A DNA stretch of 64,000 bases, from positions 18,309,001 to 18,373,000 of the forward strand of contig NC_092568.1 in the NCBI RefSeq assembly GCF_037975245.1, written 5' to 3'. A program made the position numbers and the translations under genes. The DNA comes from Apostichopus japonicus (Eukaryota; Echinodermata; Holothuroidea; Aspidochirotida; Stichopodidae). The notes below the pieces were generated by a model. The model was not told where the DNA came from and ran no database searches. It saw only the letters and a list, made by a program, of their open reading frames with translations. Below, piece by piece: positions 34,215 through 57,563 of this stretch (its first letter is position 1; each line of letters starts with the position of its first letter).

Positions 34215-36126
34215 TTAAGTCAGCGGAAAAATGAGATTAGGTTTCTTTCTTCCTTTCAATACTTTGATGTACGCGTTTCTGAAGTCAGGGCTACACCAGC
34301 CATAAATCAGAGGGTTTACTAACGAACTGACGAACAATATAAAGTCACACGCTGAAGATATCACGAACCTAGAAAAGGCGTCATAACTGCCCAATATAAA
34401 AACTACCGACTTGATTGAACTTGGCGCCCAACAAATCCCAGAAACAACAATAATCCTTGCCATAGTAACAGTGAAACGAAAGGATCTTGTAGGACTTTGC
34501 CGTTCCGGCATATGTTCCGTTGCTCTACTCCCTGTCTGTTCCGATGACGTAGTCGTCGCCGACATGGGATTACTAGGTTCATGCACCGGGCGTGAGTTGA
34601 TCCGTTTCAATGCGATCGAATATATGCGTGAATAGAATGCAACGATAGCGAGGAAGAATACCAGTACCGCGAATGCTGAATACAGCTGTGCGATACTGTG
34701 GGAGCCCCCGTCTTTGTAATAGGCTTCCCCACAAATATTAACGTCTGCTACATCCGGTCTATCTACGAGGCCACCGACAACTGGCCACATTCCGGTAATC
34801 AGACAAGCTAACCAAATGCATCCAATAAAGAACTTGACGCGAGCCAAATTCATGATCTTCTTGTACTTCAACGGCCTGGATACGGCGATGTACCTGTAAT
34901 GGGACGGAGAATGATGACGGAACAATGTTAAAATGAATAAGTTGAGTTAAGATACTAAGGAAGGAAGCAAACAATTTCCTTGTAAATCTTCGCACTAATT
35001 GTTCTGATATACTTGGGTGTAAGACACGAGTGGAACTCTAGTCCACATGTATCAGGTTTCCTTGTCTGCGAGATATCGCAACAGAAACGTACACTTATAT
35101 TTGCTGTGTCATGGCCCCCTGCACCCTTTCGTCAGTGTCAGTCGGGTATTTTTTTTTTATTACATTGACCCGGGAATGAATTAGACCAATGCTAATAGAG
35201 ATGTACATCGGCTTTGAGTACAATGTTTCAGTAAGCTGTCGTTTTTGACGAACTTATAACCGTAATAGTAAAGACTTTGCGATCTGCGGTCCCCATTACA
35301 ATTTGCAAGGTCGGTAAAAATGTATAGCACTGTCAATGAATAATGGGCCGGCATATACGCGAGTAATGCCCGTGACGGTTTTAAACCCAGTCCGATCCAG
35401 GGTATAGCTTCTGAAGAGCATTTGCCCAGATAACATCACATTGACCCTCTTACCATGCTTCAACTTCCTCCATGGAGTAGTTGAAGGTTTAACCTATGAT
35501 ATTGAGATGAGGTTTTCCAACTAGCAATGGTGTACTATTTTGTTTCCTTCGATATAATTTTCACATCGTTAGTCACCCGAAAGCGGTAATGTGTTTCTGT
35601 TTTAATCTAGATTTGAAAAAAAAAGTAATTCCATTTTACAAAGAGCTTGAATGTTATATTTCTAATAACGTAAGATGTCAGTTAAATATGTCTCTTCTTT
35701 GAGAAGAGAGCTGGACATTCAAAAAACATAACAAAACCTTCATCCCCTAATTTATTCTTAGTACCCACATGGCAAACTTATTTCATGGAAGGCAACCTTC
35801 TGATACCATCCCTGAACGCTATTTAATTTTTTTTTTAATTTAGTCATCTTGGGTTAAGTGTAACAAATTCGCAAATTGGTGAATTGAGCGAGGTACATTA
35901 GTTGCGAGAACATGTAATCTGCGAAGATTTGTTTTTCTTGATGCATTCTCAAAATTGACCGTTCGCCAATAATATTTTGACGAGGAGGTATTACCTCCTG
36001 CTGTGATCGAACTTCATGGAGAAGTCGAAGGAAACACTAATTGGAGTAAAGGGCCGGACAGAATAATAGCCTTGTTTACACACCAGATTACTTTTTATTA
36101 TACATTTTTCTCCAATACTACTACGG

Positions 36127-36169
<43 letters not shown>

Positions 36170-38735
36170 GGCGCGGATCCAGGGGGGTCCAGGGGGTCCG
36201 GACCCCCCTGTTCTTGGCCAAAAAGAAAAAAAAAGAGAAAAAAAAGAGAAAAAAAAAGAGAGAGAAAAAAAGAGAGAGGGAAAAAAATATTTAAATTAAA
36301 CGCCAATTTTAAACATGTAGGACGTCAGAAGGGCGGTTATCCTTACAAGTCAGCCAGGTGTCTCTTTTCCGTCAAATGAACTGTAGTGTGCACGCGTGCT
36401 AACGTGCAAAAAATGCCTAAAAATCTCAATTTTCAGACCGAAAAGTTTCAAAATTGAGGTGGTGTTCGAATTGTTTTGGGCGGTGAGGTGGCAGAGCGGT
36501 AGGCTGCATAGGATGCGCCGACGAATTCTTCATGAGAGATCGTTTTCTGCGGTGAGAAGGCATAAAATTGTTCTCCGATCAACAATGGGCAAGGAACGTC
36601 TTACAGCTCTTGTTCTCATGAACACGTATTATAACACTCCTATCGACACTGACGAAGTGGTCCGAAAGTTCATTGAGAAACATCCACGGCGTTTGTTCTC
36701 TCCATACTACCATGAATAGATCATCAATAAAACTAGCTAACTCGTACTGATGCAGATACATTTCGAGTGAGTTTTTGTAGGTGCTTTGAATGGCTAAATT
36801 GAAGGGGGTTCCCTGTTGTACTTAAATATCCAAGAATTTCACAACGGATAGAGGGAAACCCACTCCCCTTAGACCCTAGGATCACTGGAGGCCAAACCCC
36901 TCACCCTTCCAGAATCCTGGATCCGGCCCTGCATCAAACAGTGGTGACGGAACGGGAGGGGAATTGGTGGCTAAAGGCATTATGATTTTTGTATCATCTC
37001 AATTCATCTGATATGTATTACCATATTTCATAGATTGTTTTTTTCTCATCAATTGAGAAATTGCAGACATAAGATCCATATTTTCAGGCTAGGTACATGC
37101 AGCTTAGAATACTCGGGAAGTGCCGTTTCCGGCCATCTGGGGGGGTTTGTAAAGCCAAAACTTTTCTGGTACGCTCCGCGCCAACCGATGGTGGCGCTCC
37201 GCTTAGATAGTCTTTCGATCAGGCGCGGCTGGACCAGTCAGACCCCCCCTGTCTAAAATCCTGCATCCGCCCCTGCTACTACTACTACTACTACAACTAC
37301 TACTACTACTGCCACTGCCACTGCCGCTGCCACTACCACTACCACTACTAACGATACCACTACCACTACTACTACTGCTACTACTGCTACTACTACTACT
37401 ACTACTACTGCTACTGCCACTACCACTACTACTGATACCACTACCAATACTACTACTACTAGTACTGCTACTACTGCTACTACTTCTACCACCACTATCA
37501 CTACTATTACTACTACTACTACTACTACTGCTACTGCCACTGCCACTGCCACTACCACTACCACTACTACTGATACCACTACTACTGATACCACTACTAC
37601 CACTACCACTACCACTACCACTACTACTACTGCTACTACTACTACTACTACGACTATACTAAGACTACAACTACGGGTCCGCATAGTTATAAATGGTAGA
37701 GGTAATATCGAACTTCTGTCTGTAATTACATAGCATACTATGGATCGATAATTATTCTTTAAATTGCCTGGATGGACAGATCCGACTTTTAAAGAATGTT
37801 GGGTAAATATTTTATCCAGCATAAATATTAGTATTTTACCAAATGTGGGTAAAGTTTTGCCTCCAAACAAGTATAAATTACGATGGTCCAAGCAATTTAA
37901 TTGCCAAACAATATAATAATAAACTGGTCAAAAGTGGCTACATTTCACTTCATTGGAGGCAAAACATTAACCCAAAACATTGATACATACATACATTACC
38001 CAAGGTGGGTAAAATATTAACCCTGGTAACATATTTAGAGTGACCTGTAATTAACTCTTTTCGATCGAATATTTAGTCTGTTGCTCAATTAGGATAGCGA
38101 TAACATATATCTACGGTGGGGTTTTAAAGTGATTCCTTATTTTCCCAGCCCTGACGAGAGGGGATGGGGTCAAGGGGGTACAGCCTTGAGCCCGGAGTCA
38201 ATAAGGGTTCCCGGGAAAAGATGTGTTAAAGAAAAAATCTCATTAACGAAAAAACCTTGAATACAAAAAGAAGACTTCCAGAGGGGGGCCCGGTGACATC
38301 AATCCCTACTATATGCCCATGTCCTTACCTATCTATTGCGATAAATACCAGATGCAGCATCGAGACTCCACAAAAGAGTAGAAGTGGTAGGAAGAAGATG
38401 TACCTAGTGGAGGAGTAGCAGGTAAATGGACTGACGATGAGGCGATTGGCGACATTCAATGGGATCGCGACCATCCCCGTCAAAAGATCTGCGAAAGCCA
38501 GGCTGACCAGAAAGTGATTGGCAGGTTTCCGGTGGATTCGGTGATCCCCAAAGAAGGCAAGGACGACCAATAAATTACTTAAAACGATACCAAGGCACAG
38601 TGGGAAGAAGGCAGCCAGGTAACAGAATAAACCAAACGTTGTCACTTTCAGAGACAGGATACTCGTTTCTCCATCTTCCGTGACGGGTTGGGTCAAAGGG
38701 ATCCCAGTTATTAACACATTTGCGTTTTCTTGCAT
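34215..38735 (-). CDS. Class A (rhodopsin-like) G-protein-coupled receptor, orphan
   Basis: Two coding exons, 38735-38329 and 34893-34215, join in phase to 361 residues with seven hydrophobic segments. TM1 (about 34-62) has the conserved Asn (LGIVLSNLLVV, N54). TM2 has SLAFADLL with Asp83. TM3 ends in FIAIDRY with the intron cutting the Arg codon of the DRY motif. TM6 has CWAP (GICWAPSSIK) and TM7 has NPLIY. The third intracellular loop is moderate and Ser/Thr rich; the C-tail is short and basic with no obvious palmitoylation Cys. The residue at the aminergic Asp position (3.32) is Leu, and the only Cys near the start of TM3 lies 30, not 25, residues before the DRY Arg, so a biogenic amine ligand is unlikely. 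TM2 and TM3 look somewhat adenosine-receptor-like, but I cannot assign a ligand. The 3.4 kb intron holds a hAT element inside a CTA microsatellite. Confidence 0.88.
34894..36117. other. GPCR intron, 3' part, nothing recognised
   Basis: Single-copy looking AT-rich intron sequence between exon 2 and the CTA tract; no repeats with clear borders. Confidence 0.5.
36118..36167. repeat. (CTA)n microsatellite, left part
   Basis: About 16 trinucleotide units immediately left of the hAT element; it continues right of the element at 37276. Confidence 0.95.
36168..37275 (+). mobile_element. hAT element inserted in a CTA microsatellite, with transposase relic
   Basis: Termini CAGGCGCGGATCCAGGGGGG and CTGCATCCGCCCCTG, flanked by CTACTACT on each side (36160-36167 and 37276-37283), which fits an 8 bp duplication though the tract is itself repetitive. 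The interior holds a purine tract (36220-36290), a decayed transposase C-terminus (36531-36719) and, near the right end, TACGCTCCGCGCCAACCGATG. It lies in the GPCR intron. Confidence 0.85.
36531..36719 (+). pseudogene. Relic of hAT transposase C-terminal dimerisation region
   Basis: The frame reads HERSFSAVRRHKIVLRSTMG and then KERLTALVLMNTYYNTPIDT, DEVVRKFIEKHPRRLF and a stop. The ERSFSA..R.K..LRSTM..ERL..L.LM pattern, with the following Asp-x-x-x-Val helix, is the conserved hAT C-terminal (dimerisation) motif. The rest of the transposase, including the RNase-H-like catalytic core, is absent from the 1.1 kb element, so it cannot be active alone. Confidence 0.75.
37276..37660. repeat. (CTA)n-derived trinucleotide array, right part
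   Basis: About 385 bp of CTA with interspersed CCA, GCC, GCTA and GATACCA units. It encodes only Val/Ala homopolymers in the open minus frame. It was one tract with 36118-36167 before the hAT insertion. Confidence 0.95.
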
Positions 38736-39877
38736 GTCGGAGGTTTATCAGCACCTCACTGGTCACGAGCATCAACTATAGACACTGACGCTTTCCTCTT
38801 TAAGCATATGACTACTATCCTTCTAGTGGTATTCCCAGTGGTGATGTAACTTGACTGGCTGCCTGAATTACCAATTAATAATAATGACAGAAATGTTTAC
38901 AATCCTATATTATGCTTGTTGACAAACGTGTACTGAAAAGCTCCCTTGTTTTATTATACAGCTATACGGATCACCTCATCATCCCAACATGATGAAACGG
39001 TATACACGTGAACAACTTTCTAGCTTTTGTCAAATTCAATGCCAATATCTGTAGACAATTTTCAAAACGTTTATTTTTCGTCAATGCTTATCTCTGTTGT
39101 CAAGCGATATATTCGGCTTTCCTTTTTTTTTCTAGTTAGAATGTTTCTTCTTTCTCACCCTTTCTTGCTGTAAAGATACTTTTCCAAAGTAGATTGTCAC
39201 GCAGCAGCTAAAGAAAACTATTCAGAATTTTTCAGTGACCCAGCTGAGTATATTGGTATACCATACCGTGCGTTTTCCACTGATCCGCTGATCAAAATTT
39301 ATATACCCTGCACATTACAGTCTCACTTCATATACTGACATGAAACCTATACGCGTAAAATATTAAAATGATATTTGTTTTGTTTTAGTTTGCCAAATTC
39401 ATGCCAATATCTATATACATAGACAAATTCAAAAATTGTTCTCCCGTCAAATTGTTAATCATCAGTTGTGTATGCAGACAATTAATATGATTTAGATCGC
39501 GCATGTGCAAAACTTGCGCAATTGGCATTTATATGGATTCTTCTAGATCAGTAAACTCGTGCCACTCATGTGTGAAACACTTGGCATTCTACTATATAAT
39601 ATCGTTTTTAGTTAAAAGTCACGATTTCTGCTAATTATTAGCGAATTGAACACGATACAGTGTTTGCTGAGTACACAGGTAATTGACTTGTCTGGATTGG
39701 CAAGGACACATATATATCATCAGGATTGCACTTGATATATATCTGTTCCCTTCGCTGGTGAGAAAAATATGCCTATGTATATCTATAGCAAATGAAAAAA
39801 ATGATTACGTCTCAAAATGTCTGTATATTATTTTCGCTGGAATAGAAATAATAAAAATAATATCCAACTATATATAT
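38736..39877. other. 5' flank of the GPCR gene
   Basis: Presumed 5' UTR and promoter of the minus-strand GPCR. No TATA box or known element could be assigned with confidence; no other gene seen. Confidence 0.45.
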
Positions 39878-46326: not shown

Positions 46327-49300
46327 CTACCTGGGTAGCATCTCATCCATATCGGCCACTACGTAGGACACCACTGCCCAAACGGCAGCACATAGATCCA
46401 TCATATAGGGATCCTGCACAGACATAGTATCACCTGAAATGATATTAATGGAAATAATAATAAAACCCCCCCAAAAATGGATACATTTACTCAACCAGTA
46501 GACCCAAACTTATTGACAGATAGATTAAATGCTCTCTTATAAGTGTAGGCCCTAATAATGAAATATGTAAGAAATGTATTGCATCGTTGGTAATAGTGAC
46601 AAAAATATAAATAAAAGTAACGGATTACATCCCAGAGGCTGTTCCATCAACCCTGAAACTGTCAAAGAATTGAATAAAATCATCATGTGACCACAACACT
46701 GGGCTTAGTTTGAAAAGCTTTTTTCCATGACTGGATGACATAATACAACATACCTCTTCTGCTATGATCAGGCCGAGTCAAACTCTGGTTTTTTACCCTA
46801 GAATGGGTTGCAAAACCTTTTATTATGGGTCATGAGGTATGAAGCAGATTATAAAAAAAGGTAGTGGGGGGGGGGGGGTGAGAGGGTAGGGAATGGATGG
46901 TGGTAGTGAAAAATGCAAATTTAATGAATAATAATCTACTCACCATCTGAATGATGAAACCAAAAGTAACGGTCATTTTGGTTCAGAAGATTACCCCCTG
47001 GTACCCCTGCATCCATCCATGACTGGACATCTCCGCCTTCGGTGCTTACTTGTAAGGTAGTTGCATTTATGGGAGACAGAAGGTCCAGAACTTGCTTCAT
47101 AATTTCTTGGGTCGCTGCATTACCTGTTGTTGATCAATTAAATAATAAGCAAGCTCACATAAAGTATAGCTACCTGTCACTCATATTACATCAACACGTT
47201 TTAACCTGTAGTCGTCCATTTGTGATTTTTGTCAAAAACTGTCGATAGATTAATAATCTATGAACCATTCTGGTGCAGACTGAAACACATTGTTTGTTAC
47301 ACAGTTCCATGCTGTAGTGGGTAGTTTGTCGGGAGTGTTGTGGTCAAGTGATTAAGGCAATGGACTGGCGATCTAAGAGTTGTAAGTTTGAGTCCTGGCC
47401 AGATCATTAAATTGTGTCCTTAGGCAAGGCTATTAATCTCCATTGACTCTCTTCATCCAGGTGTGTAAATATCAAAATGAAGACAAAATGAAATCAAAAT
47501 GGATTCTCTTGCAAACTTTGACTTTTACACTGTACAATAGTGTTCTTACCAGAGTTAGATATACCAGTAGGAGTGAAGGTTCCACCATCTGATTCCATCA
47601 CGAGATCGTAGTTGCTAATATTTGACTGTAAAGTATTTAAGCAGACGAAAGTTTATATCTACGATGCATTGAGGCTACGATGCATTGAAGTCTTGATGAC
47701 ATAGTAACATCCTGAATAGGTTATTAACATGTTTTTTTTGTTGTTTTAAATAAAATGAGATTTCACTTTCATGAAGAAATCATATAAGTGGGGACTGGAT
47801 TGCAGCTATACATTTTATGGGAACAATGTTCTTCACATGATTGAGTTTTGAAAGTGTGTGAGAAAGAATGACAAATATGATAACCAACAATGATTTTCAT
47901 ATTTTGAGATGTAGGTGCATACAATGAGACCCATATGAATTATTCAGATATAACCATGTGAGTGTTTGCTATAACATTTACGATGTCAAAGAAACACGAG
48001 GACTGATCTTTGATGAATCAATCAACTAATAGTGTTGGTCAGTTACTATACACACAAACACGCACACAGATATAGAATATTCCCCTTTAAGTGCCTGTTT
48101 GTGCAAGCATGATATCCATTGTTCCATGACAAGGATACAGTGCATTCCTGTGTGTTCACAATTTGAAAGGTCTTAATATGCGAGGAAGAGCCGAAAGGCC
48201 GATCATCGTTGTGATCCCTTGCCACATTTAGATGAAAACACCCAACAGTAAATGCTGCCCAGAGGATTTTCAAAAGCTGACCATTACTGAGTTCAAGTGC
48301 CATCAGCAAGGTTTTTGCACGCACGCACACTTACACCAACACACCTCATCACCATCGCATGGATTCCTTAAGTCTTTGGCAAGGAATAAAAAGAATAGAG
48401 GTTAGAAATTAGTACAAAGAGCATGACAATGTTTTATCAAGTGATGTACTCATAAATTTAGAGGTGTTCCTCCACCATGTTCTATAGTGTGATGACTAAA
48501 TAAAATTACAAGCTGCACAGATCCGACAGGTAATCACATCATCACCGATTCGCTACCGTCAAGAACCAATCACAAGTGAGAGTGAACATTCAAATGAGGA
48601 AACAAGGGTCTTGCACAATGCATTTTACAAAAAAATGAGTCTTCTGTACTAAATGGTCTAATGAGAGTTGTGTTGTGTTAAAATGATATTTTTAACTATG
48701 TATGTCTTCATGAATATCAGAGCATTGGGAAAGCAATGGATTTAAGTACAACCAGAGGATGGGCTGAAAATATGTAACGGAAATGTAAGCCTAATAACTG
48801 ATAGAATTAGATAATTAGTGGATTAGTAAAAACCATTTTACCTTGTGCTGTTCATAGTATTGCTGTGACCCTACATATCCCTGCTCCTCTCCTGTCCAAA
48901 ATACCGCCCTCATCGTTCTTTTGGGGCGTAGACCAAGCTGTCTTATGACCGACAAAGCCTATACACATGAAAAGCAAACGTAAACTGTTGAATGGCATCT
49001 TCCAAAATTTCAAGAGGGTTTTACCTTATGCTGGTCATAGTATTGTCTTGCACCGACAAGGCCTTGTTCTTCACCAGTCCAAAATACAGCTCTCACGGTA
49101 CGTTTTGGTCTTAGACCAAGTTGACGCATCACTGATAAAGCCTATAAACATTGATAAAGCATGGCAGAATAGCAAAACAATTTTTACTATCTAGCTTAAA
49201 GAGACTATTCACAGTGGTATAACTATGCAGAAGGGCCGGGCAGGGCAGCTGCCATATACTGGCTGGCTCTAAAGCAATGCATAGTTGGTTCTGAAGCCTG

Positions 49301-52300
49301 TGATTTCCTCTTGAAAAAAAAGAAAGAAAAAAGACACTAGTATCGTCTGGGGTGCTAAATGAGCTGCCAATTCCCAACTCTGCATATTGCGTCACTCACC
49401 GGGTATGAATTCATGCACCAGCCTGCCCTTATGAGGGTTACAAATTATTCCCACTCCCCCTATCGACTGCTGGTTACATGAAGACTCACAGACAAGAGAA
49501 GGGGGGAAATACCATCGTTGAGAAGCATGGGTGAAACAATTCCCAAAATTCCTACGTGTGCCCACATTACGACCATACTGTACATAAGCCACATTTCAAC
49601 AGCATTCATTGACATTGCTGGGAAGAGAAGCCCCTTTTAATAGTTAAGTTATAAACATAATATAATGATCACTGTTCCCCTACAGCCATTTAGCTGTAGG
49701 TTACACCCATTACTAGTTCTAATTCAATAGCGTCTGAAAATTTCAACTTGAATCGGGCAAACAACCAGCAATTTTCAGCCATCAAGCCTTTTAACAACTT
49801 GATAGCCTGTAAAATGTCGGTTCAAAGCACCAAGCAGACGGCAATTAGTATTTTGCGCATAGGAAAGTACAATAATATAGTGCCCACAAGGATCATCAAA
49901 CTACTTCTAACATTAAACTGAACACAAATTACACAATTGAATAAAAAGTACAAAGAACGATTTATAAGTATTGTAATTCTACAACCATAACCCACATAGT
50001 TCTCTCCGTCTCTCACTCCATATACGACGGACATGTAGAATGACTCAACGTACCTGCCAAGACACAAATGCTCCACCGCCATCATCCATCGCTCCCTGTC
50101 CGACATCCCAGCTATCCAGATGTCCGGAAACTAAAACCACCTGGCAACAGAGAGAAACAAAATGAAATCCCACCTCCAAAAAGTGACAGGCAATGTGGAC
50201 ATTAAAAAGATCAAGTTGATACTTTTGTTGGATTGTGACAGACCCTGTGGTTTCAAAGTTGCAACACACTCTGTGCATGTTCTCTTGTGGTTAAAATGAT
50301 TACTTCTATATTAGTGATAACTTTGAGAGAAGCTTGCATTCCCTAATGATTTATACTATCAACATAAAATTAGAGAAACAGATTTTTAAAGTTCACCTGT
50401 TCAGGATACTTGCTGCCAATTATCTCCGCCACAGTATTTCTGGATACTGCATCAGGTAAGGTCTGGGCCTCGAGAATTAATTTAATAACAATCTTTGTTC
50501 CTACAGAAAGTCAAAGAAGAAAGCATCACAAATTTCAATAGTGATACTGAAAGATTTGGATCCCAACTTGAGAAAATGAATTTGTTGAGGTAGAAGTTGC
50601 TTCCCAATGTAACCAACCATACTTAAAGGCATTGAAGACTCGCCCCAACAGTGTGCGGCCATCTGAAAAAGTTAACTATCTGTTGCTTGCAAGTGACGTT
50701 TTGTTTGTGTCGCTACAAAATGCAGACAGTAATGAAACGTGATACCTTGTTATCTTTAGCTGGACCTGAGATGTCCATCGCTGTACACTGTGTTCACTGT
50801 GCTGTGGGTATTGACCGCAGCTGTATGTGCTGACTGTACACTAGTGTCTACAGTAATTACCAATGGTAGCATGCTGTGTGTGTATTTTCTGGGATCGATG
50901 GTGGTGTCTAACACTTCTGTTACACCTCATTCAAAACTAAGTCAGATTACCGGCATTAGACGTTTCTTTTTGCGTAAGTCTTCACACCCTTTAACTGTAC
51001 TATACAATACCAAAACATAATGTCTATAAATTTTACTGCTTCTATACTATTGACATCCAGAGATAGTGATAATTGCAAAAATATGTCTGCTTCATATTTG
51101 ATTTGATTTCCTTTTTCAAAATTATTTCCTTTTTAAAAATGAAGGTTATAAAAAACTAAGAAACGACATATATACCTCTGGCTGCCATCCTGGATAACAT
51201 CTCAGCATCTTCAACAGCAATGCAGGCAACCGGAATCTTCTTTATGGAATCTTTATAAAACTGAAAATAAGATCCAAAAGAAATATTTCATGGCAGGAAA
51301 ATTCTTCACCTTTACAGTGGATATACTTGAGCGATTCCTTCCATGTGACATACAATAGCTATGAATAACAAGATGACAGATTTGGGTTAAAAACAATACA
51401 TGAATAACAACTTATCCTGTCAGTTAAAGCATTTTTTTTTTACTTAACAGTAAGACCAAGTAAATATCAGAATTATATAGCAGAAAAATATGAAACTAAC
51501 AATAAGATGAATATGAAAAAAAAGAAGAGTTTTTGCTAATATTCACAATATTTGAATGATGAGTTTAAGACATATACCTGCATGCCGGTGTGAGGGCTAT
51601 GAATTGAAAACGATGCAACAGATCTCACAAGGGCTGCAATTCCTCCTACTTTAGACGTCTCCTCTGCAGCAAAGTCTCGGTACTGTACAGACACACCATA
51701 GTTAACCCAGTCTTGGTCAAATACCACAATCTTTCCCTTAGCCTGTCCGGAGAATTAGCAAACACAATAGGTACGTAGTTAATACATTCCCAAACTCATG
51801 TAGCAAAATTTGGTGCCATTTGTGTAGAGTTGTATAAAGTCATGACTGGAGTTACTAAAATAAAAAATAGATAATAATTCGCACCCCCGGGTTAGAAAAT
51901 CCTGGATATGCCCCTGTATATATATATATACAGGCACGTATCCAGGGGGGGCGTTGGGGGCACGCGCCCCCCGGGTAAGGAAAGGAGGAGAGAAAAAAAG
52001 AGAAGAAAATGGGGGGAAAAAGAAAAGGAGGAGAGGAAGGAAGGGAAACAAAAAGAAGAAAGAGAGAAAAAGGAGAAAAGGAGAGAGTAGAAGATAAACG
52101 CCAAGACCTCGGGAAGAGAAAGAGGAACAGTCATAATTAAAGCACTGGTCCTATTATATACACAGGGTAGTCAGTGACAGATCGAGGATTACGGAGGGGA
52201 CGTGCGCCTCACCCTACCCCTTACAACGACAGCTCCATTTTTGACGTTTCCATTTTTCCTCTCTCACTAATGTATCTATATATATATACTATATATGGTC

Positions 52301-53439
52301 TATCATAACGCGTGTGTGTGTATGGACGCCTTAAACAATTGTACAATTGTGCTATGGAACCAACTGTGGCTGGTCTTGAACTCGACCGAGTCGTCGGGGA
52401 ATATGACTCAATTCGGGAAGGGGGCGACCGCCCCCCCCTCTAGCAAATTTTCTTTATGATATCGCTAGTAATTTCAAAAGAGACAATGCTTAGATGCAAC
52501 TTACAAGGCCTGGGAAGTGTCATTTCCAGAGATCTTGGAGGCATTTTCGGCCAAAATTTTCTTGTACGCTTCGCGCCAACTCATGGTGGCGCTACGCTTA
52601 GATAGTTTGCCAATAGTTTGAATTACCAAGGAGAAAATTTTTAAACTATTCATTTCCTTAAGCTACATCATTGCTATATTTATTTTTCTTTCAGTAGTTG
52701 CCCGAGTTTTCAGGGGAAAAGATTTGGTTGGGGGGGGGGCTGCAGCCCCCCGCCTCCTACGCCTATGTGTGTAGTGTTCGGTTTCGAAATATCTGAAATC
52801 GGAAATATCTGGGTTTTTTTCATTTCCTTCAACAAAGTTTTATAATAGCCGTTATAAGAGGTTTTAATATTTGTACACCAATAAATGAACTGTGTCTGAA
52901 CTTTCGAAAATTTCCTGACCAACATTCTTCATCATACGTCCCTCTACCCGTGCAATTTGACCTGTCTGTGAGGGGTTGAAGGAGGTTTTTCTATATTGGT
53001 TGTCCATAGATTGAATTTTGTGCAACATTATGGGTATGTTTGAAGTGATTTTATTCACGAGAAATGTAAATTTTCAAATTCTGAACAAATAATGGGCTTA
53101 AAACCTTGAAAAGTGGGGCTTTCGGATATTGTGAGCCGTGACGTAGAATCACCTACAAAAGCAATGATCCACAGGACATGCAATGAGGTCGAACATGATG
53201 TGTGACTGGTGACAATCTTCAAAAAGGTTATGGATGGAAAAAAAACTATTGGGAAATACTTGGTTCTCAGGCAAAAGTGTACATCTGGTTGGTCATTTTC
53301 AAGCCCGAGAAGTGCCATTTCCGGTGATCTGGGGGTTATCAAAACCAGAAATTTTCTTGTACGCTCCGCGCCAACCAATGGTGGCGCTCCGCTTAGATAG
53401 TAATTCGCGCCCCCGGGTTAGAAAATCCTGGATACGCCC

Positions 53440-53484
<45 letters not shown>

Positions 53485-56400
53485 GAAAATCGTAATGAGT
53501 TGGAAAATCAAGAACAGTGAAAAAACTTTCAGCCTCCACCGGGATTCGAACCACGGGCCTTCCGCTCTGTACGCGGACACCCTAACCACTAGGCTATGGA
53601 CGCTGATTGTATGTCCAGAGGTTCCAAACCGGTAAGGAAGGTCGTAATTCCACTGTAGGCGTTTGTCACCTGTATCGAGCAATACTAGTTCTGTTTTTTG
53701 GTGACATATTTTGCCTTACTCTAGAGATCAAACATGATGCTAACCAACTCGAAATCATTTGTGATTCCTAAAGCCGGATCTCGAAAGAGATACTTTGAAC
53801 AGACTTTATGTTAATGCAATGGAGGTAAACGACAAAGGCAAATGAATATATATAAATGAAAATCGTAAGTGAAAAAACTTTCAGCCTCCACCGGGATTCG
53901 AACCACGGGCCTTCCGCTCTGTACGCGGACACCCTAACCACTAGGCTATGGACGCTGATTGTATGTCCAGAGGTTCCAAACCGGTAAGGAAGGTCGTAAT
54001 TCCACTGTAGGGGTTTGTCACCTGTATCGAACAATACTAGTTCTGTGTTTTGGTGACATATTTTGCCTTACTCTAGAGATCAAACATGATGCTAACCAAC
54101 TCGAAATCATTTGTGATTCCTAAAGCCGGATCTCGAAAGAGATACTTTGAACAGACTTTATGTTAATGCAATGGAGGTAAACGACAAAGGCAAATGAATA
54201 TATATAAATGAAAATCGTAATGAGTTGGATATATATGTGACATTTTTGCCTGGATGTATTTCCTCTTTGATGCACACTGTTATAAATGCAATTTGCCACA
54301 GACACAATTTGCATCTTTATGACACGAGAGGACTTCAATTATTATTCATGGAAAATCAAGAAAGATAGAGACATGTAAAGAGGAAGAAGGCAAGGCTAGC
54401 ACAAACCGGACTTACCTCACTTGATCTGTTGTGAAGTTCATCAAAGGAATGGACCACCAGAACATCAGCTGTCATTCCTTCAACAACAAAAAAAAGTAAC
54501 AAAAGACTAATTAAACAGTTCATTCATTAAAATTATTTTACAACAACCTATGATACCCCTGACAAATTGGTTTAGAAAAAAAAAACAGCCAGTTTAAAGA
54601 TGGTCTGTTGGTTGTTCTATTCCCCCAACCCCCCCTACCCCCCACCCCCATGACCATTATTTTCAAACCATACTTTACCTTCAGGAGATGTTCCAACACT
54701 TCCCCCTAAGCTCAGCAAGGCGATGTCATAATTTCTCGGTTCCACCAAGGTAGCAGACTCCTGGCCTCTCACCCAGTGTGGTACCTAAACAGAGATAATG
54801 AATAATCTAGGTATTTTAATAATATCTTTAAAATTAATAACAACTTACTCTAGCTGAATACTTACAGTATACACCCAGGCCTAGAATTACACAATTTTAA
54901 AAACTGGCTTAAAAATTGTAAGCGCATTAATCTACATGCATGCTAAATCAAGTTCCCACTTCCACCCATCAGTTACTCAGTGAATTGAATTTCATGGCTA
55001 TGTTCTTAATGGCTACTTGCAGAACAACACAGACAAAACAAACAGAGCTAGTAAAAGGCTTCAGATCCTAAGTGACATTATGATATCACAAAGTTACAAA
55101 ATGAAAGCTACTCCCAGACATGAGTTTGGCTGTTTGGGGGTATTTCTCTTCACAACAATCTCTGTTATTAAACCAAAGTTGATGGTTTGGTTTGTGTCGC
55201 CTATATATATAGCATCACAAATAAAAACTTCAAGAGGTTTAGCTTTGGAGCTTTTACATATAATAACTATTAGAGCTTACAGTGACATTTTCTCCATGAA
55301 CATTTTCTAGGCCATCTTTCTGAAGTTCTTCGATGAGGTAATCTAAATGAAACAAAGTATACATTGTCACAATACAAATATTTTCAGCTATATAGTAATA
55401 ATCTTGTCCTAATTGTTGCATTTATAATTAACATTAGATTGTTCTTTCATACTTGGCTAATTAGGAAAAAAACATATTAAGATCTAAGTTGAATTGCACT
55501 CTTGCTAAGAATGCACAAAGCACACAGGAAGTTAAGAACCTAAAAGAATACATAGATCACCAGTGATAGCTGAGACAGGCTCAAATTGTACATGTACCAA
55601 CACAGAAAAGACTGAAAAGGGGTAATTTCCTGTAAATTTGAATACGGTTCCTGTTTGGTCAAATCAACTTACCGATTGCATTCTCTAGATTCTTTGATCC
55701 AGAGATTCTGTTACCAAATGTATCAGTGAACAAAGCCAACCTCTTGTAAGCTTGGCCTTTACCAGTTCCATTCAACAAGAATTCAATAATTTGGTTAGCA
55801 ACATCTGTCAAAATATGAAATAAGAAATATATCTATAAAGCCATTTTCCTTGAGAGGTATCTCTAGACTTAGTATAAAAATAGCCATTTTATTGTTTCTT
55901 TCAAAAGATGGTATCAAACACATTGATTGAGACCCAACTGAGCTGGTGCCTAAAACTCATCAATCTTTCACAAAACTGTTATAATTTACCTATTTAAAAA
56001 CTCATTTCATTTACAGATTGGCACTTTTATTCTCAGGCACAGCCATAAAATTCTTGCCACAGCTTACTCCTAATGTCTCTTTCTACAGTCTATCATCATT
56101 TGGAAAATTAATTACCCTGTATTTTTTTCTCTGACTATCTTAAAAAATGTAGTAGTGCCTTAACTATCAATTGACTAAACCTCTTCTGTATTATTTTACA
56201 CTTTGATTCCTTTTTTTTTGGATAATTATCAATTTTTTACAATTCACCCTGAGATGAACAAATGAAATAAAAATCTTTGGTACATTTCATTAGCAGCTGT
56301 AGTGAGATTACAGTTGGATCTTCTGATGGAACCCTACTGTAAGGCCAATGGAGCTTATAATAAGTATTTTTCATTCTTGCAAATTTGGACAAAATAAACT

Positions 56401-57563
56401 TAAGATTCCTTTATCTGTCAAAATATACCTTAGTCTTGGTCACATAGTCCTCTACAGCAAGATATGGAACAAGGTCAATTCTCTAGCAGGTTTTTTCTTT
56501 AGATCATTTTATTGCACATTGCATCACTGACACAGCTTGCATATAGTTGTAATTGGCTGGAAATGTCATCAATGGCTGTTGTAATTAATTAAAGTGACTG
56601 ATTTACCTCTGTATGATTCAATCTCTTCCTTAATGCCTGTGGTATGATTGACAGAGCTGTGCTTGTCTATGACCACTGCAACCGGAGCTGAGGTGCATTC
56701 ATAGACTGAGGAAACAAAATATAGTAACCCTAGAGATAATTGCACAATAATATCTGATACATGTCACACATTGACAACAGCTCAGTCTTTGTCTGCCTTC
56801 AAATTTCAAATGATTATATGTAACATTGGAAAATAATTCAATTGTACGACTAATGTCATTTAATGTTGGTGATGTATGATCTTAGTAACTTTAACAATAA
56901 ACAGTGATTTCAATTAATAATGATGGGAGCCTCATTGCATTAGTGAACTGAAATATAATGGAAAAACAAAAATCTTATTATATTAGTGGATAGCATTGTA
57001 TGAGCCTAGGCCTATATGAAACAAAGAAGCCAGAATATTACACTAAAAATTTATCATTGGATTGTCTGGCACTCCCTTTGTTTATACCTAGGATCCAGCT
57101 GAATGAATTATCACTGCCTTGGTATGAGCAGCATCATACCCCGGCCTACAGCAGCCCATCATTTACCCCACCAACCACTGGTTCTCAGGCCTACTGTATG
57201 TCTATAATTATGTCTATAATTATGAATAGTGACACCGAAATTTGTAGCATAGCGAGAACTATCACGTCCAGTTCTGAAACTGCGTGTGTATGTTATGTAG
57301 CGTTTGTCAGAATATTACAAGGTTTAACGTTAGTAATAGTACATCGTACAGAACTTCTAACTCGGGCTAGGCTAAGTAGCAAAACAGTTAGGCCCTAGGT
57401 CGATTTTGTGTCGAGTTCTCTAGGATATGAGATCTTCACGCTACAACGACTTAGGCTACGAAGCAGCCGACTTGCTCCTGTTAAGCAAATTTCATATCTT
57501 ACCAAGCAGAGACATACAAAGTACTTCAAACAGCGACATTAATAAGCAAATGTTAGGTCTCAT
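46327..57563 (-). CDS. CPQ: CPQ, carboxypeptidase Q (M28 metallopeptidase), with duplicated exon 11
   Basis: Carboxypeptidase Q (plasma glutamate carboxypeptidase) is a secreted/lysosomal dinuclear zinc peptidase that cleaves dipeptides. Exons on the minus strand: 57563-57503, 56705-56607, 55804-55673, 55342-55281, 54784-54679, 54477-54416, 51742-51578, 51260-51176, 50500-50397, 50140-50054, then 11a 49141-49025 or 11b 48958-48842, then 47625-47550, 47123-46944 and 46433-46327. With one copy of exon 11 the protein has 480 residues (human 472). It starts with a signal-peptide-like [20 protein letters not shown]. All expected metal and catalytic residues are present: His in SGHLDSWD, Asp in MDDGGG, Glu-Glu in WTGEEQG, Asp in MESDGG, His in WFHHSDG. 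The protein ends [10 protein letters not shown], like vertebrate CPQ. Introns carry a hAT element, a TTAA element, tRNA-like repeats and a SINE. Confidence 0.95.
47330..47475 (+). repeat. tRNA-derived SINE in CPQ intron 12
   Basis: It has an A box region GTGGTCAAGTGATTAAGGC, an ACTGGCGATCT anticodon region, a B box AAGTTTGAGTCC and the typical tail TGTCCTTAGGCAAGGC..CTCTTCATCCAGGTGTGTAAA. The organisation matches the Ser/Leu-tRNA-like SINEs with a CORE-like tail known from many marine invertebrates. Confidence 0.7.
48842..48958 (-). CDS. CPQ: CPQ exon 11b (second copy of duplicated catalytic exon)
   Basis: A 117 bp phase 0/0 exon encoding 39 residues beginning [15 protein letters not shown] and containing [10 protein letters not shown]. 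It shares 33 of 39 residues with exon 11a while 20 codons differ only synonymously, so both copies look selectively maintained. The catalytic Glu pair is intact. The differences cluster just after it: Leu to Tyr, Ala-Arg to Ser-Gln, Asp to Glu. The acceptor TATAG and donor GTAAAA are normal. Confidence 0.88.
49025..49141 (-). CDS. CPQ: CPQ exon 11a (first copy of duplicated catalytic exon)
   Basis: A 117 bp phase 0/0 exon encoding 39 residues beginning [15 protein letters not shown] and containing [10 protein letters not shown]. The Glu pair supplies the general base and one zinc ligand of the M28 active site. It has its own TATAG acceptor and a GTAAAA donor. It is followed after a 66-nt intron by a homologous exon of identical length and phase. 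It could be mutually exclusive with exon 11b, or both could be included in frame. Confidence 0.88.
50623..50994 (+). mobile_element. TTAA-flanked inverted-repeat element, copy D (CPQ intron 8)
   Basis: Plus-strand copy between CPQ exons 8 and 9, with TTAA at 50623-50626 and 50991-50994, the same ~20 bp TIRs and interior. Confidence 0.9.
51868..51916 (+). mobile_element. Solo right terminus of a hAT-like element
   Basis: The last ~48 bp of the same family (CCCCCGGGTTAGAAAATCC then TGGATATGCCCCTG) stands alone, separated from the next full element only by 14 bases of TA repeat. It suggests nested or sequential insertion at one TA tract. Confidence 0.7.
51931..53442 (+). mobile_element. hAT-like non-autonomous element, 1.5 kb copy in CPQ intron 6
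   Basis: Termini CAGGCACGTATCCAGG and CCTGGATACGCCCCTG; interior collinear with 39878-41293, with the CGCGCGAAGCGCGCG hairpin part replaced by a TTGGTTGGGGGGGGGGCTGC block. Both flanks are (TA)n. No open transposase frame. Confidence 0.85.
53443..53480. repeat. (TA)n tract
   Basis: About 38 bp of pure TA directly after the right terminus of the hAT-like element 51931-53442. Confidence 0.93.
53481..54240 (-). repeat. 352 bp tandem duplication with tRNA-like module
   Basis: Two full units (and the start of a third) at 352 bp spacing, each with AAATGAAAATCGTAA, a tRNA-like segment, CCAGAGGTTCCAAACCGG, CACCTGTATCGA and CGGATCTCGAAAGAGATAC. On the minus strand the tRNA-like part (53531-53603 and 53883-53955) has an A box TAGCCTAGTGG, a TCCGC/GCGGA anticodon stem with 7-nt loop and a B box GGTTCGAATCC, but the acceptor and T stems do not pair fully. 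It is therefore a SINE-like or tRNA-pseudogene unit, not a working tRNA. Confidence 0.8.

Follow-up and report, generated by a model that had tools for sequence, protein, structure and literature searches.

The carboxypeptidase Q (CPQ) gene of this sea cucumber, which appears to be single-copy, carries two tandem versions of the exon that encodes the Glu-Glu of the active site. These two exons, 11a and 11b, are probably spliced in a mutually exclusive manner, and a functional difference between the resulting enzymes is probable; we infer both, together with a steric cause for the exclusion. Transcripts would then run either 10-11a-12 or 10-11b-12, each encoding a full-length enzyme.

The window analysed here, by which we mean the whole stretch of 64,000 nt (38.3% G+C), is part of contig C8; the genome, all of which was searched, totals 671,581,487 bases in 35 contigs. 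Within the window, the coding region of CPQ occupies the minus strand at 46327..57563, from a start codon at 57563 to a stop codon that ends at 46327. It comprises 14 exon positions, whose borders were set by hand using homology and splice signals, and its product is 480 amino acids long with 11a or with 11b. This product carries the Pfam Peptidase_M28 domain (PF04389; E = 8e-31 with 11a, 5e-30 with 11b), aligns over its full length with human CPQ (60% identity over 466 aligned residues), and is 48–50% identical to its eight closest bacterial homologues. When the full CPQ protein was searched against the whole genome, with only the best candidates scored, all 15 scored matches fell inside the CPQ gene, with 11a and 11b accounting for two of them; neither a second CPQ gene nor a third copy of exon 11 was found among these 15 matches. 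A DNA search with the exon pair likewise gave one match genome-wide.

The window holds some other features that we record here. Intron 6 of CPQ contains two tRNA-like sequences on the minus strand, at 53530-53604 and 53882-53956, 352 nt apart, each called by ARAGORN as Cys (anticodon aca) and each scoring 50 bits against the Rfam tRNA model; they look like a tandem tRNA-derived repeat. Also on the minus strand, 34215-34946 and 38325-38744 are rhodopsin-type receptor stretches matching Pfam 7tm_1 (profile positions 83-260 and 2-83, respectively), probably two exons of one gene.

Exons 11a (49025..49141) and 11b (48842..48958), both on the minus strand, are each 117 nt long and of phase 0/0, and are separated by an intron of 66 nt (48959..49024, minus strand). 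On the same strand, exon 10 (50054..50140) ends in phase 0 and exon 12 (47550..47625) starts in phase 0. Rechecking returned exactly the coordinates, lengths, 66-nt gap and phases that an initial annotation of this DNA had given for the pair, as well as its codon tally (below), and its neighbouring exon ends, 50054 and 47625, were also right. Both copies possess an AG acceptor and a GT donor (tatag and AAG/gtaaaa); under a splice-site matrix built from the remaining exons of the gene, their scores are no different from the spread that those exons show. The two are thus adjacent, homologous, equal in length, identical in phase and equipped with their own splice sites, as is characteristic of a tandem duplicated exon pair. 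As both lengths are multiples of three, joining the two exons or skipping both keeps the frame, and nonsense-mediated decay is therefore not expected to remove mistakes of either kind.

Comparison of the 39 codons of 11a and 11b showed 13 to be identical, 20 to differ synonymously and six to change the residue (11a/11b, by segment position: M/I at 5, V/M at 16, L/Y at 28, A/S at 31, R/Q at 32 and D/E at 36). In all, 32 of the 117 nt differ, and the pair therefore cannot be an allelic or assembly duplicate, so that an assembly artefact and an allelic or haplotype duplicate are ruled out. Homology between the copies spans 133 nt at 75% identity, from 10 nt upstream of the exon to 6 nt downstream of it, as is expected for an old duplication.

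Several measures support the view that this tandem duplication is old and that purifying selection has acted on both copies. Synonymous sites are saturated (pS 0.81, against pN 0.12), and 10 of 15 four-fold sites differ, giving a Jukes-Cantor distance of 1.65 with a 95% lower bound of 0.54; age is judged here from saturation alone, within one genome. When 32 differences were scattered randomly over either copy (20,000 trials), they produced a mean of about 20 amino-acid changes and a minimum of 12, and a stop codon arose in 75% of the trials that started from 11a and in 82% of those that started from 11b, while the observed copies differ by six amino-acid changes and contain no stop. In a one-sided test, a single copy drifted alone for half of the observed changes, and six or fewer changes with no stop were obtained in 0.2% (from 11a) or 0.1% (from 11b) of trials; multiple hits were ignored, which makes the test conservative. 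The scatter and drift tests therefore indicate that both copies have been kept, and together with pS and pN they agree with the reading proposed in the initial annotation.

The 66-nt intron is shorter than every other intron that we surveyed, as none of the 106 others was shorter than about 126 nt. These comprised the 13 other CPQ introns (201–2673 nt), 40 distinct myosin introns (minimum about 241 nt) and 53 kinesin introns (minimum about 126 nt). For myosin, 53 of 70 rows were taken, 52 of them in fetched loci, and these gave 43 adjacent pairs, three of which occurred twice in overlapping loci, leaving 40; for kinesin, 130 matches gave 53 adjacent pairs. Pairs that were non-adjacent in profile coordinates were left out, and lengths were estimated to about 30 nt. 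A very short intron might go unnoticed within a single match, and a scan for excess length covered the kinesin matches. It found three with more than 45 excess bases; the reading covered one of these, where the intron is about 136 nt, and the two others have 51 and 366 excess bases. Of the loci fetched at this stage, L112 alone was read.

Partial copies of myosin exons turned up in the surveyed loci. At L092:6820-7393, four near-identical partial exon ends with a 5′ splice site follow a full exon, one every 137–163 nt and without an AG acceptor at the start; they look like a recent repeat array and not like full exons. At L096:4691-5092, in a myosin heavy chain gene that is presumably of the muscle type, two partial exon starts, about 125 nt apart, stand before the full exon with the acceptor present and the 3′ end cut off. 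At L110:4987-5374 there is a nearly identical partial duplicate of an exon end and the intron that follows it. The partial copies at these three loci, each cut at one end, look like recent repeats, unlike the CPQ pair. EST-supported mutually exclusive exons have been reported for muscle myosin genes of sea urchin and hemichordate, among them two exclusive exons in the sea urchin myosin heavy chain cluster 8, where the ESTs are from Strongylocentrotus (PMC3912159). At L097:851-913 and L097:1944-1996 we observed short, exon-like versions of myosin loop 2, KATVGKKKKGGSFQTVSALHR and GLPGKQKKIKTISGGHR, with borders drawn by eye, which may represent the cluster-8 exons in sea cucumber.

Within the 66-nt intron, the best branch-site motif match is TTTAC; 44 nt separate its A from the 5′ splice site, and 22 nt lie between that A and the 3′ splice site. 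At +57 there is a further match, 9 nt short of the 3′ splice site. Work with human extracts has put the minimum distance between 5′ splice site and branch site at about 50 nt, and an intron cut down to 70 nt, with 46 nt between the two sites, was no longer spliced in HeLa extract (PMC6692369). If, by analogy, the human-extract limit of about 50 nt carries over to sea cucumber, the 66-nt intron would leave too little room between 5′ splice site and branch site for the spliceosome to assemble, and the joining of 11a to 11b would thereby be hindered. Such hindrance by a very short intron had been argued in the initial annotation, and at the level of sequence the argument has support, both in the length of the intron, which falls below 106 of 106 others, and in the best branch-site match at 44 nt. 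Of the pairings that competing RNA structures would call for, between a docking site and selector sequences, none was kept: six tests of pairing between introns against shuffled letters gave best P values of 0.01 and 0.05 before correction, and none was significant after it. As for a hairpin in the 66-nt intron, the intron folds no better than its shuffles (z = 0.73).

Turning to the protein, we take the first Glu of the Glu-Glu to be catalytic and the second to bind metal. Both are present in 11a, in 11b and in all 79 bacterial homologues that cover the segment (from a set of the best 80 of 217 loci), and the other residues invariant among these homologues are also kept in both exons. A structural model of a bacterial homologue shows the exon-11 segment as the end of a helix, a strand leading to the Glu-Glu and then a further helix, and four of the six changes lie just before, or on, the helix after the Glu-Glu. 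At all six sites the residue of 11a outnumbers that of 11b among the 79 bacterial homologues drawn from the best 80 of 217, with counts of 36 v 21, 36 v 5 (of 78) and 44 v 0 at sites 5, 16 and 28, and of 28 v 0, 15 v 0 and 48 v 6 at sites 31, 32 and 36. The commonest bacterial residue is Gly at site 31 and Asn at site 32, neither of which is that of 11a. The Tyr, Ser and Gln of 11b occur in none of the 79, and four of the 33 residues common to 11a and 11b are likewise absent from them. Relative to bacterial homologues only, then, 11a looks like the more ordinary form. Comparison with human CPQ does not support the idea that 11b is clearly derived, as the human sequence matches 11a at 27 of 39 positions and 11b at 27 of 39.

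The Leu/Tyr site, residue 349 of the protein, aligns, weakly (E = 0.1), with Leu428 of glutamate carboxypeptidase II (GCPII), a residue listed in the S1′ site of that enzyme (PMC9976286). This alignment gives some support to the suggestion, made in the initial annotation, that the two isoforms could differ in substrate choice. The 11b form would keep the catalytic machinery, would place a bulkier Tyr in lieu of Leu where a related enzyme has an S1′-pocket residue, and would carry further changes along the helix after the Glu-Glu; its substrate preference or rate would probably be different.

Against this reading stand three others. It is unlikely that only one of the exons is used and that the other survives as an old relic, out of use though intact in appearance. 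The three residues of 11b that are unseen in 79 bacterial homologues are what a decaying copy might show, but unseen residues alone are no mark of decay, since four of the 33 shared residues are unseen in bacteria too. Moreover, both copies retain intact splice sites, an intact frame and the Glu-Glu, only six residues differ despite saturated synonymous sites, and drift of one copy alone gave so few changes and no stop in just 0.1–0.2% of trials. Even less probable, to our minds very improbable, is that both exons are included together to yield a protein of 519 amino acids with its catalytic segment doubled. The frame would be open in such a transcript and both splice-site pairs are ordinary; however, a second copy of the segment would be expected to break the alpha/beta core, and the intervening intron, at 66 nt, is far below the 106 others surveyed.

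A third possibility is that the exons are alternative but interchangeable, a mixture being tolerated with neither functional difference nor regulation. That there are only six changes, most of them mild (M/I, V/M, D/E, A/S), speaks for this, as does the equal likeness of the two copies to human CPQ. We nonetheless consider it quite unlikely, as the long upkeep of two copies that differ at an S1′-equivalent site would be easier to explain if they differed in function. Mutually exclusive splicing of 11a and 11b, with a probable functional difference, is therefore the explanation that we favour. A more far-reaching version of it is conceivable, but we advance it only tentatively: the duplication may be ancient, perhaps echinoderm-wide, and may allow one dipeptidase gene to switch S1′ specificity by exon choice, with the 11a form acting on the usual substrates and the 11b form (Tyr at the GCPII Leu428 position, Ser/Gln on the next helix) acting on others in certain tissues or states (evisceration, regeneration and aestivation would be examples). 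If the exons are exclusive, the animal can probably make two CPQ forms from one gene, and the pair then amounts to a clean natural experiment, in which two enzymes are set one exon apart by six amino-acid differences, one of them at a relative's pocket position.

Mutually exclusive exons that arose by tandem duplication have been described before, and the CPQ pair would be a new case of them, its exclusive splicing and functional difference both predicted. To our knowledge, vertebrate CPQ has a single version of the exon. A search of open-licence papers found no literature on duplicated CPQ exons among the matches listed. Among M28 relatives, such as the solved 3iib and the more distant GCPII, the sea cucumber CPQ differs in having two versions of its catalytic exon in one gene.

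CYP4F3, whose alternative exons are 3 and 4, is unlike CPQ in being a cytochrome P450 regulated by tissue. It is like the CPQ proposed here in that one splice choice switches the substrate of an enzyme (PMC7434440). The nearest parallel in function is coq-2, which in nematodes and other rhodoquinone makers has two mutually exclusive internal exons, 6a and 6e, of 134 nt each; 6a is described as the pan-eukaryotic form, 6e differs from it at two conserved residues close to the substrates and changes the product that is made, and when exon 6a was deleted, one product rose and the other fell (PMC7434440). As in CPQ, this is an enzyme gene with an equal-length exon pair, one member ordinary-looking and the other changed near the active site. 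The enzymes are different, however, and splicing and function have been demonstrated for coq-2, whereas those of the CPQ pair are predicted.

With respect to mechanism, exons 4a and 4b of OGDH are reported to exclude one another through branch sites too near the 5′ splice site, at 25–41 nt in human, with a threshold of about 50 nt (PMC7969005). In OGDH the branch sites have been located by experiment and lie far from the 3′ splice site, whereas the CPQ intron measures 66 nt in all and its branch site is a motif match. Human substitution events involving homologous tandem exons are described as mostly old, with mostly conservative changes that keep the core function, as in CPQ, but are enriched in ion channels, unlike CPQ; the words 'CPQ' and 'peptidase' do not occur in the main text of that survey (PMC9741552). 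The coq-2 authors describe exon choice that alters the core of a catalytic site as rare and name CYP4F3 as another instance (PMC7434440). The CPQ pair would place such a choice in an apparently single-copy peptidase gene.
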